Virus record (IMG/VR): IMGVR_UViG_3300030099_002874
Span: 5,685-34,320 of that record
Origin: a virus
Direction: 5' to 3' (one strand)
Length of the DNA: 28,636 bases
In this document: positions 2,760 through 6,191 of the stretch, piece by piece
Layout of the letters: each line of letters opens with the position of its first letter
Position numbering within the stretch: the first letter of the stretch is position 1
Program-made: the position numbers and the translations under genes
The notes under the pieces: model-generated
What the model was told of the DNA's origin: nothing
The model's input: the letters and a program-made list of their open reading frames with translations, nothing else
Database searches by the model: none

Positions 2760-3055
2760 AATAAATCCAAATATTTTTCATCTAATGTGTCTAATAATTT
2801 GTCGGTAATGTTTTGTAGGTTTTTTATTCTTGCAAATTTATTAAATTCTTTATGTTCGTGACACTTATCGTGACAAGTTCTACAAAGACAAATAAGATTT
2901 TCAATATAATCTTTACACTTACTACCGCCAGATTGACGATTACTAATATGATGTACTTCTGCACCCCATTCACCACACGTAACACATTGTTCAGTTTGTG
3001 ATAATGTAAGTTCGTCCCACCAAAATTGTCGGTAAACATCAACGTGATTTTTCAC
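2756..3055 (-). CDS. HNH endonuclease
   Basis: A compact 99-aa HNH nuclease with the zinc-ribbon form of the motif: C24-x-x-C27, the H35-H36 pair, N53, C58-x-x-C61-H62, then H66 and H68. These are the residues expected for the beta-beta-alpha-metal active site plus a structural zinc. The start is GTG at 3053-3055, overlapping the stop of the upstream 30-aa peptide, so translation is probably coupled. In phages such proteins serve in packaging, recombination or as homing nucleases. Here it sits inside the recombination operon rather than by the terminase, so a role in DNA processing or host-DNA cutting is more likely. Specificity unknown. Confidence 0.88.
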   Translation of the reverse strand: MKNHVDVYRQFWWDELTLSQTEQCVTCGEWGAEVHHISNRQSGGSKCKDYIENLICLCRTCHDKCHEHKEFNKFARIKNLQNITDKLLDTLDEKYLDLL

Positions 3056-3144
3056 TTGTAAAGTTTATCTCCTATACCCCACAACATTAATGCAATTATA
3101 AATAAAATTATTAATTGTAAAATTTCTATAATTAAAATTAACAT
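3052..3144 (-). CDS. 30-aa single-span membrane micropeptide
   Basis: This short ORF runs from ATG (3142-3144) to TGA (3052-3054). It encodes a very hydrophobic segment (residues 2-23, Leu/Ile/Phe only broken by one Glu and one Gln) followed by a short basic tail ending DKLYK, fitting one membrane helix with the C-terminus inside. It exactly fills the gap between the DnaA-like gene, whose stop it overlaps by 7 nt, and the HNH gene, whose GTG start overlaps its stop. That overlap is the main reason to believe it is real. No ribosome-binding site is seen. Function unknown; a lysis or superinfection-exclusion role would be speculation. Confidence 0.55.
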   Translation of the reverse strand: MLILIIEILQLIILFIIALMLWGIGDKLYK

Positions 3145-3647
3145 ATTTTTTTTATATTTTTAGGTTGTTTTTTATTAAGATGGTGTAAAACATCTGTATG
3201 ATGTCTATTCATAAATTTTGAAATTTCCATGATATTAAATTCTGTGTAATTATATACTGCATGACAAAAATCTGTTCTTGCTTGAACTAAATTTTTATGT
3301 CTTCTTTTTGATCTAAATTGATCTAAAGATATTTCATAAAATATACATATTTTTACACACCATTCCATCAAACCATTTTTTCGTAAGGCATTAGGATATA
3401 CAAAATCAATATTTCTAATAAGTTCTTTCAATCTTTTAATTTCAGATTGTGAAAGATATAATTTTTTATCAACATTTAATTCTCTTTGCTCATTAGATAA
3501 CCAATGAGAATTAGATATATTAAAATTTTCTTTTTTTCCTTGAAATTTAATTTTATCAATAGTTATTTTTTCAATATATCTTTTCTGCCTCAATGCAGAT
3601 GTTGTCCTAATACCTTTTTCATTTTTGTTGTTATATTTAGCAACCAT
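3138..3647 (-). CDS. Stand-alone DnaA domain IV-like DNA-binding protein
   Basis: The C-terminal part (about residues 98-160) matches the DnaA DNA-binding domain (domain IV). It has a helix ending in an FRSKRRHKNLVQAR basic loop, then the signature helix RHHTDVLHH (R148 to H156), which lines up with the DnaA signature DHTTVLHA. There is no Walker A or B, so the AAA+ ATPase domain is absent. The first 95 residues are basic and unassigned. Such a protein could bind DnaA boxes to start phage replication, help recruit the host replisome or block host initiation, or act as a repressor. It lies in the early operon between the SSB-like gene and the membrane micropeptide, with a one-base TAATG overlap upstream. 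The domain call is firm; the role is open. Confidence 0.8.
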   Translation of the reverse strand: MVAKYNNKNEKGIRTTSALRQKRYIEKITIDKIKFQGKKENFNISNSHWLSNEQRELNVDKKLYLSQSEIKRLKELIRNIDFVYPNALRKNGLMEWCVKICIFYEISLDQFRSKRRHKNLVQARTDFCHAVYNYTEFNIMEISKFMNRHHTDVLHHLNKKQPKNIKKIC

Positions 3648-3886
3648 TAAAAACCCATTAAATCATCTTCTTCTTTTTTTTCATTATTAGGTTTCCATGT
3701 GTTTACCTCTGCATAAAGATTTCCACCCTTGCTCTCTTTAATGTCAATATTTATCCATTCTTCTTGTTTGTCTTGTTGTTTAAACCACTCAACAAATTCT
3801 GCTTTTTTAATACCAAAACTAGCTTTAATAAAATCTACTTTTGGTTTTTTTGGATAAATACCACTTACTAAATTTTTGTTATCCAT
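3647..3886 (-). CDS. Small early protein with SSB-like acidic tail
   Basis: A 79-aa protein. The body has alternating hydrophobic and charged residues that could make a small beta domain (INIDIKESKGGNLYAEVNTW, about 46-65). It ends in EEDDLMGF, an acidic tip with a terminal Phe like the SSB tail (DDDIPF) that binds partner proteins. It follows the ERF annealase with an 8-nt overlap, the usual place for a single-strand-binding partner. I infer a ssDNA-binding or recombination accessory role. No full OB fold can be demonstrated by eye. Confidence 0.6.
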   Translation of the reverse strand: MDNKNLVSGIYPKKPKVDFIKASFGIKKAEFVEWFKQQDKQEEWINIDIKESKGGNLYAEVNTWKPNNEKKEEDDLMGF

Positions 3887-4427
3887 CTATTGAATACTCC
3901 TTTGTTTCAGTTTTTTTTGAGGCTTCATTGCCATCATCATCACTTGCTAATCCGTACAGTGATTGTAAGCCATATCGTTTAGCATAAGTAATAGCTGAAC
4001 CCATTTTTTGTGGGTTGTCCTTGTGTTCACTGTTAACAATTACAGGCACGCAACATGTAAGTTTTTCATCTGTATCATTATGATAAACAGTGGTTGTAAC
4101 AAAAATATCTCTGTGTATGTCTTGATACTTTTGCGTAACTATGTCTTTATCTTTATTTGTTCTTGTTTGCTCTTTTTCTAACAGTACATTTTTATAATCT
4201 ATTGATTGTGAAAATGATAAACCAAACTCTGCACCATAATTTACAGCATTAATAACACTTGTTAAGTCTGCATATTTACTTTTAAAATGTGGATTTGTAC
4301 TATCTTTCAGTGCAGTAATATTTAATTTTTGAAATTTAGATAATGCACCTTTAAGTGTTTTTTCTTGCTCTCTTATATGATCCACTAGTTCTTTAAACTT
4401 TTCTTTTTGTTCTCTTAGTCCCTGCAT
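3879..4427 (-). CDS. erf: ERF-family single-strand annealing protein
   Basis: A 182-aa member of the ERF superfamily (P22 Erf type), which anneals complementary single strands during phage recombination and genome circularisation. The diagnostic motifs are present: NPHFKSKYADL (residues 45-55) and the C-terminal QKMGSAITYAKRYGLQSLYG (140-159), followed by LASDDDGNEA. The first 40 residues are a charged helix. It overlaps the nuclease C-half gene by 35 nt and the SSB-like gene by 8 nt, giving the classic order exonuclease, annealase, SSB. Length is typical of the core ERF domain without a long C-terminal extension. Confidence 0.92.
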   Translation of the reverse strand: MQGLREQKEKFKELVDHIREQEKTLKGALSKFQKLNITALKDSTNPHFKSKYADLTSVINAVNYGAEFGLSFSQSIDYKNVLLEKEQTRTNKDKDIVTQKYQDIHRDIFVTTTVYHNDTDEKLTCCVPVIVNSEHKDNPQKMGSAITYAKRYGLQSLYGLASDDDGNEASKKTETKEYSIDG

Positions 4428-4785
4428 TTTTTCTTACCCTTTTTTTTAATTGTTTATCTTCATCAAAAGCATCTCTTAATAATCTAAATAACTTAAAACC
4501 TTTTTTTAAATCAGTTTTATCAAACTCTCTAATTTCATAAGGCGAATCATCTTTAGGAAAACGAGCAACAAAAAATTTATCAATTTCTATTTTTTCATTT
4601 TCTTTGATTAAGTGTGCGTAAGCTGACCCTTGTATTAAATTGTCAACGTAAATTGCACTTGATGTTTTAAAATCAATTAAGATATACTTTCCATTTTCCT
4701 TAACAAGTAAATCTGGTGTTCCACCATATTTATACTTACGAGAAATAAAATGTTTTTCTGTCCAAATTATTTCAACATTAGCCAT
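4393..4785 (-). CDS. RecB/Cas4-like PD-(D/E)XK nuclease, C-terminal half (catalytic)
   Basis: The 130-aa product carries the core of a RecB-family exonuclease: GGTPD (D25), then ILIDFKTS (D38 and K40), then QGSAYAH (Q52 to Y56, the QxxxY motif). The last 15 residues are very basic. What is missing is the N-terminal part with the GxxxH motif, which is found in the gene directly upstream. The two genes overlap by 8 nt (ATGGCTAA), and the second is shifted by one base. Together they total about 224 aa, the length of a normal single-chain phage exonuclease of this type. The likely job is to resect dsDNA ends for the ERF annealase. A similar 8-nt overlap between ERF and the next gene suggests this is a natural junction, not a sequencing error. 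Confidence 0.85.
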   Translation of the reverse strand: MANVEIIWTEKHFISRKYKYGGTPDLLVKENGKYILIDFKTSSAIYVDNLIQGSAYAHLIKENEKIEIDKFFVARFPKDDSPYEIREFDKTDLKKGFKLFRLLRDAFDEDKQLKKRVRKNAGTKRTKRKV

Positions 4786-5062
4786 AATATTTTTCCCACC
4801 ATACTAAAAACTTACTGTAACAATTTTGTACTTCTTCTACATCAGATGGTACAAAATCTTTTTTGTTAATGTAATTTTCTACTTGATCGTGAAAGGTAGA
4901 ACCAATGTTAGCAGTTCTTTGCAACTCTTCGTAATATGTAATTCCTTTTAAACCTAACTTATTACTCCAACCTGTAATAGCCCCACTATCTTTGAAACGA
5001 CTTGTTATTGTTGTAACACTAGGTACTACCTCATCTTTAATTTTATATTTAATTGTTGGCAT
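4778..5062 (-). CDS. RecB/Cas4-like nuclease, N-terminal half (split gene)
   Basis: The 94-aa product resembles the N-terminus of phage RecB-like exonucleases. It has the opening VPSVTTI (residues 13-19), a WSNKLGLKG helix, and ANIGSTFHDQVENYI with the conserved Gly54 and His58. It ends KFLVWWEKYYG just where the homologous chain would run on into the sequence that starts the next gene. It has no D/DxK residues of its own and is probably inactive alone. It could be a separate subunit that assembles with the C-half, or the two could be joined by a +1 frameshift. No classical slippery heptamer is visible at the junction. Confidence 0.8.
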   Translation of the reverse strand: MPTIKYKIKDEVVPSVTTITSRFKDSGAITGWSNKLGLKGITYYEELQRTANIGSTFHDQVENYINKKDFVPSDVEEVQNCYSKFLVWWEKYYG

Positions 5063-5411: not shown

Positions 5412-6191
5412 CTATGCTAAATCTAGAATAATAGATATATCATCAATTACTATTTCTTCTGCTTCTAAAGGATAAACTCTTTCTATTTCTAGTTTATCCA
5501 TAACTTCCCACGTTGGAATCCAATTTTTTTCTTGTGATTTGCTTGTAGATTTTCTGTGAACATATCCCATGTAACGTAAAAACGATATTACATTATCATT
5601 ATAAAATTTTTGTATTTTACCTTTAGCGTAATCTTGATGATCTTTAATTTTTACAATACATGGTCTCCACAAAAGATTTTCTTTTTTATGTATGTTCCAA
5701 TCTTGCTTATTATCATCAAATAAACATACTCTATGATCTTTCCAATTACTTGTTTTATTATCTAATACAGGAACAGTTAAACAAGCTCTTAAAGTATTAA
5801 TTTGATTAATCCAATTTGGAAAAAACAATGCTTTTGGACTTGTTTTCATTAAATCTGGTGCTTCAAATGATTTTTTTTTATAATTCCACTCTAAAACAAC
5901 TCTAACTTTGCTTATCTCTTCACTAACAAAACGAGATAAAGATATATCTTCATTCCTATGTTCGCCTATAACTCTTAAAATTTCTTTTAATTGAAAAAGT
6001 TTTAATTGATCTGGCTTATCACTAGGTTTTTTTAGTTCTAAATCATACATTGTTTGAATACTAATTTTACCAAAACCATCAGGCGGATTTTGTGTTAAGT
6101 CTGCAATCTCTTTTTTGTTAAGAGAACAAGAATTGATTAAATCTAATAATTTATCTTTTTCGTATTCTTTATTTAAAATTGGCACTAACAT
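5412..6191 (-). CDS. Candidate phage repressor with N-terminal HTH, 259 aa
   Basis: The N-terminal 75 residues look like a helix-turn-helix region (SLNKKEIADLTQ at 23-34 and ISIQTMYDLEL at 43-53), as in XRE-type regulators. The rest is a basic, Trp-rich domain that I cannot place. It shows no clear S24-peptidase Ser/Lys pair, so RecA-stimulated self-cleavage is not supported. It is read away from the divergent replication operon at 6298 and ends just before the early operator region at 5289-5342, the usual place of a lysogeny repressor. Role inferred mainly from position and the HTH; it could instead be an early regulator. Confidence 0.5.
   Translation of the reverse strand: MLVPILNKEYEKDKLLDLINSCSLNKKEIADLTQNPPDGFGKISIQTMYDLELKKPSDKPDQLKLFQLKEILRVIGEHRNEDISLSRFVSEEISKVRVVLEWNYKKKSFEAPDLMKTSPKALFFPNWINQINTLRACLTVPVLDNKTSNWKDHRVCLFDDNKQDWNIHKKENLLWRPCIVKIKDHQDYAKGKIQKFYNDNVISFLRYMGYVHRKSTSKSQEKNWIPTWEVMDKLEIERVYPLEAEEIVIDDISIILDLA

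Follow-up and report, generated by a model that had tools for sequence, protein, structure and literature searches.

An MGME1/RecE-like phage exonuclease probably encoded as two overlapping and translationally coupled genes

Two overlapping genes in the window (the whole stretch of DNA analysed here, 28.6 kb out of a 34.3-kb virus record) probably encode one MGME1/RecE-like exonuclease as two translationally coupled chains, which probably feeds an ERF annealase. We infer the coupled translation, the assembly of the chains, the nuclease activity and the pathway, and give this reading a probability of about 0.83. In the proposed mechanism, the ribosome would end chain A at a TAA codon and restart at an ATG five bases upstream of that stop, and the restart would be aided by a Shine-Dalgarno (SD)-like stretch in the Trp-Trp codons of chain A. 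Chain A would supply the N-terminal helices, i.e., the counterpart of the MGME1 helical arch, together with a metal-binding His, and chain B would supply the beta-sheet core, on which Glu, Asp, Asp-x-Lys and Gln-x3-Tyr are located. The two chains would associate to form one active nuclease, and this nuclease would resect DNA ends, probably yielding single strands for the neighbouring ERF annealase.

The two genes and their protein family

The genes are arranged on the minus strand in the order chain A, chain B, ERF annealase, a 79-aa protein and a DnaA-C-terminal HTH protein. Chain A (4778..5062, 94 aa) comprises the N-terminal helical part with a GxxxH motif (G54-S-T-F-H58) containing the putative metal-ligand His, and has a C-terminal Trp-Trp pair (W88-W89). 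Chain B (4393..4785, 130 aa) comprises the beta-sheet core with E10, D25, D38-F-K40 and Q52-x3-Y56. The start of chain B lies over the stop of chain A in an 8-nt overlap, ATGGCTAA (4778..4785), with chain B in the +1 frame, and the same architecture was found in other split contigs. The Trp-Trp codons and the next bases, TGGTGGGAAAAATATT (4786..4801), are conserved and could form an SD-like element for chain B. The two ORFs, their motifs and the 8-nt overlap were thus present as the initial annotation had described them. Its motif list lacked Glu10 of chain B, the residue aligned with the invariant Glu223 in motif I of MGME1.

The next gene (3879..4427, minus strand) encodes an ERF-type single-strand annealing protein of 182 aa (Pfam ERF PF04404, E 6.5e-19; PHROG 2324/155, E 4e-26), followed by the gene of the 79-aa protein (3647..3886, minus strand). 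It had been proposed that these neighbours overlap in the same style as the two chains. This applies to the ERF gene and the 79-aa gene, which share the 8-nt overlap ATGGATAA at 3879-3886, but not to chain B and the ERF gene, whose overlap is 35 nt. The proposal that the 79-aa protein is SSB-like was not confirmed, with no SSB match obtained in Pfam or PHROGs. The protein beside the ERF module (3138-3647, minus strand) has a C-terminal DnaA-type DNA-binding domain (PF08299), and a similar-looking protein occupies the matching position in contig L112 (2679-3056). On the other side, a 259-aa protein (5412-6191, minus strand) gave nothing above noise in Pfam and PHROGs. The terminase of the virus is nearest to those of HTVC010P-type Pelagibacter phages (about 49% identity), and the virus also carries SU10-type portal and capsid genes and a tyrosine integrase.

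Overlaps of the form ATGnnTAA are no more frequent in the window than expected (40 against 41.7). The case for a real pairing was therefore built on homology and conservation, with the overlap motif excluded. Each chain alone matched PHROG 298 (exonuclease; 293 positions), chain A at positions 58-146 (E 1.9e-11) and chain B at positions 149-274 (E 9.2e-14). Since these stretches are adjacent and do not overlap, the pairing of the two chains is not a matter of chance, and the earlier suggestion of one RecB-family nuclease in two overlapping genes agrees with this result. G54 and H58 of chain A were invariant in the split and single relatives aligned, and E10, D25, D38, K40, Q52 and Y56 of chain B were invariant in all aligned relatives.

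The two chains were joined by reading the four-letter word GGCT as one residue, and the joined chain was aligned with single-chain relatives. The AF2 prediction of the joined chain had a pLDDT of 90.7 and a pTM of 0.85. Chain A is helical in this model. Helix 76-92 and strand 97-101 are connected by a loop, and it is in this loop that the break (residue 94) occurs, separating the N-terminal helical part with the metal-ligand His from the beta-sheet core and its Glu, Asp, Asp-x-Lys and Gln-x3-Tyr. Human MGME1 was the best structural match of the joined chain by Foldseek (E 3e-12) and the only strong sequence-profile match in the PDB (E 2e-8); with VIA-align it gave a Z of 20.1 (rmsd 2.4 over 190 residues), the next being RecE with a Z of 13.1. 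The active site of MGME1 consists of H180, E223, D238, D251 and K253, and two long N-terminal helices, the second of which carries H180, form an arch over the DNA (PMC6237815). These residues align with H58 of chain A and with E10, D25, D38 and K40 of chain B. By alignment, the arch helices and the His would thus be in chain A and the remaining active site in chain B, and the two chains would make up an MGME1/RecE-like PD-(D/E)XK exonuclease of the PHROG 298 family, its activity being expected from homology and its two polypeptides a variation within the family.

MGME1 and the single-chain PHROG 298 phage exonucleases resemble the joined chain over the whole length of the fold and in the active-site set H, E, D, D-x-K, and the phage family also has Q-x3-Y as in chain B. 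However, they are single chains, and MGME1 functions as a monomer (PMC6237815), whereas the window enzyme would consist of two chains, with the break separating the helical part from the beta core. RecE, lambda exonuclease, Cas4 and the AddAB/RecB nuclease domains have the RecB-family PD-(D/E)XK core in common with it but are less similar in structure to the joined chain (Z 13 and below). To our knowledge, none of them is split between the His and the Asp/Lys core. An assignment to Cas4 was rejected: neither chain has the four conserved Cys of the iron-sulphur cluster, and the Pfam Cas4 match covers only the nuclease core of single-chain relatives.

Conservation of the split in viral contigs

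The same split, which the initial annotation had suggested seeking in related genomes, was found in 36 IMG/VR contigs besides the window; these come from many metagenomes and nearly always have the 8-nt ATGnnTAA overlap. The same two ORFs are present in all of the nearest relatives from viral contigs (60-66% identity in A, 73-78% in B), and their overlap reads ATGGCTAA, ATGCCTAA or ATGTCTAA. Other split lineages are formed by L093/L101/L103/L107/L112/L114 (junction ATGAGTAA or ATGAATAA), L099/L102/L105/L108/L111/L122-L125 (TTGTCGAATAA-type junction), L258/L259/L263-L267 (junction ATGAGTAA or ATGAGTGA) and L126/L143. The overlap is also found as ATGnnTGA in one lineage and as a TTG start with 11 nt in one. 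Chain B lacks a nearby ATG in the L099/L102/L122-type lineage; translation of B would there begin at TTG or at an ATG that lies 62-77 nt within chain A. At the overlap, both start and stop are preserved while the intervening bases vary.

Searches for the exact window junction among viral contigs, and by nucleotide sequence among phage records, gave no match, and the case for the split is therefore made on protein-level relatives. The split form was not found in any cultivated phage. The Pelagibacter phages HTVC026P (gp13), HTVC111P (gp04), HTVC112P (gp03) and HTVC202P (gp04) have a homologous exonuclease, but as one ORF of about 256-262 aa.

Between the window and its nearest relatives, pairwise dN/dS was 0.27-0.38 for chain A and 0.10-0.18 for chain B. 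Pairwise values were below 0.4 for both halves in the tested split lineages (the L258 lineage was not included, and L107/L112 were without a value for B), and both halves are under purifying selection in these lineages. The faster evolution of chain A could also be expected if the halves had parted ways, i.e., if chain B alone, or neither chain, were a nuclease and chain A served some other function, e.g., DNA binding or regulation, and domain splits can indeed yield new roles. We consider this very unlikely. GxxxH is invariant in chain A of the split lineages, neither half was seen alone in any contig scanned except at contig ends, and a change of the active-site His makes MGME1, the closest homologue of known structure, much less active (PMC6237815).

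Phage exonucleases often adjoin an annealase. When the translated neighbours were inspected by eye, an ERF-like gene directly followed the nuclease in the window clade, in L093/L103/L107/L112/L114 and in the single forms L100 and L115, and other neighbours stood beside the nuclease genes of other lineages. The annealase partner is therefore not fixed. The proposal that the nuclease feeds the ERF annealase is plausible from the gene order in many split lineages, although it does not extend to all of them.

The junction and the translation of the two chains

The linker was measured from the Trp-Trp codons to a conserved (W/F)(T/S/C)E motif. It is exactly 30 nt in most single-chain forms, the exceptions being 36-39 nt in L161-L163, L260 and L269 and 51 nt in L133. 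In the overlapping split forms it is 37, 40, 43 or 49 nt, all of these being 1 mod 3. The split forms thus differ from most single forms by 7-19 nt, and none is one base away from the 30-nt single form. As the linkers differ by multiple bases, the split does not equal the loss of one base. The residue spacing across the linker in the distant single-chain homologues HTVC026P and HTVC111P is that of the 30-nt form; for this reason the single chain is likely the ancestral state. The split is best explained by fission of the gene at one loop, together with the insertion of a few linker bases.

These data also bear on whether the split reflects a sequencing or assembly error or a decaying gene. Single-chain relatives with 43-60% identity to chain B are indeed known, and most split lineages have some beside them, which would fit such an artefact. 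However, the same split recurs across the contigs of many metagenomes, the junctions differ from most single forms by several bases and not by one, both halves are under purifying selection and the catalytic residues are invariant, so that error or decay is extremely unlikely. The initial annotation had likewise doubted a sequencing error. It had named close single-ORF relatives with a single indel as the outcome that would speak against a real split, and these were not found.

Since the overlap forces much of the local sequence (A ends in [YHND][VADEG] and B starts with M-x-[NK]), similarity of junctions between lineages is a weak sign of common origin. Local recombination was considered as the source of a junction shared by L103 and L143. 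The junction identity of these two looked high, but gave p = 0.014 uncorrected after the forced positions had been removed, and other pairs showed nothing. No homing-endonuclease gene that could have caused the split was found between the halves among the loci scanned from the A side. Only in contig L112 (IMGVR_UViG_3300030372_004763) does a short insert, without a recognisable gene, lie between the half genes (1390-1515), flanked by a direct repeat of the junction of about 29 nt. This insert supplies chain B with an AGGAGG of its own; it may be a duplication, a remnant of a small mobile element or an assembly artefact. L139 was rejected as a split form. It is rather a single-chain gene (near 1200-1700) with a frame break in the core region, soon after the linker, and this break is likely a sequencing error or the mark of a pseudogene, distinct from the split.

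The predicted anti-SD duplex before the start of chain B, with pairing potential taken 5-20 nt before that start, was -6.3 kcal/mol in the window and -5.6 to -11.9 kcal/mol in other split relatives, compared with means of -4.7 kcal/mol at the phage's own gene starts and -2.4 kcal/mol at random sites. The Trp-Trp codons TGGTGG add to this pairing. The same codons are present in single forms, and the SD-like stretch may therefore have existed before the split. In L112 a distance of 100 nt, with stops in it, separates the end of chain A from the start of chain B, and AGGAGG lies nine bases before the ATG of B. If the assembly is right, the two genes of L112 must be translated separately; the arrangement may also be an assembly artefact.

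Besides a two-subunit enzyme, the initial annotation had offered a +1-frameshift product. Programmed +1 frameshifting near the stop of chain A would give a single joined exonuclease with chain A alone as a by-product. Every overlapping split lineage has its second ORF in the +1 frame, and all conserved parts of the single-chain enzyme are retained in order, which would fit frameshifting. However, no slippery run or slip-prone codon is conserved at the junction among the split relatives. The codon before the stop varies (GGC, GCC, GTC, GAG, GAA), and after a slip into the +1 frame none of these would pair well again. Moreover, the linker length varies by 12 nt, the start codon is preserved at the overlap and the stop of chain A is retained although it may be TAA or TGA (L263-L265). 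Because of the lack of a conserved slip codon and the separate genes of L112, coupled translation of two chains is favoured, and we regard frameshifting as unlikely.

Changes between one and two chains

A tree was constructed from 78 concatenated A+B sequences with the linker left out. Split and single forms are interleaved in this tree, which needs seven changes (7-8 in the bootstrap trees), and the well-supported branches force at least five. A single clade of splits was rejected in an earlier 57-row tree (p 1e-61). The trees of A only and B only need six and five changes, respectively. As some of their deep groupings disagree, the count of independent changes may be inflated by recombination between halves or junctions. 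On these trees, related marine phages seem to have gained or lost the split several times. It is possible, though we hold this only tentatively and consider it doubtful, that independent repeated cuts at the same interdomain loop, nearly always with a coupled overlap of the ATGnnTAA type, gave rise to an obligate two-chain nuclease with a shared active site, the separation of arch and core then being a selected trait. If so, the separation could allow the enzyme to encircle DNA that has no free end, or time the nuclease activity.

Enzymes encoded in pieces are known from T4-like phages. The NrdA of Aeh1 is encoded in pieces and active, and gp43A and gp43B of phage 25 co-purify with polymerase activity (PMC2988022). 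These cases and the T4 topoisomerase gp39/gp60 are, like the window enzyme, two-piece enzymes of DNA metabolism, the complex being our proposal for the window. They are interrupted by homing endonucleases or by an untranslated spacer, whereas the pieces in the window overlap by 8 nt, no mobile gene was seen between the halves in the window family and the same site is split in several lineages. A literature search gave no report of a split phage RecB-like exonuclease, which is a weak sign of novelty as subscription journals were mostly outside the search. What would be new here is a genes-in-pieces enzyme in an established nuclease family, and unusually one whose form has changed repeatedly at a single site.

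Closely related phages with the same nuclease as one or two chains offer a natural experiment on the cost and benefit of splitting an active site. A small helical-arch exonuclease that is split in nature could also serve in the design of controllable nuclease tools and in studies of how nucleases of the arch type are loaded onto DNA. In automatic annotation, the halves would be listed as two hypothetical or partial genes or taken for a frameshift error.

Three single chains with longer linkers, L133 (1198-1893, 51 nt), L269 (near 2986-3640, 36 nt) and L161 (near 1160-1863, 39 nt), are placed beside split lineages in the tree. L269 has the tail GEFSDE, as in split A chains, followed by HKVIF. 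L133 and L269 are possible re-fusions, and L161 is possibly a re-fusion or an intermediate. The only relative found in the prokaryote genome collection, L151 (PACC02000035.1, Rhodobacteraceae MAG NAT102), is single-chain and could be a phage contig binned with the MAG.
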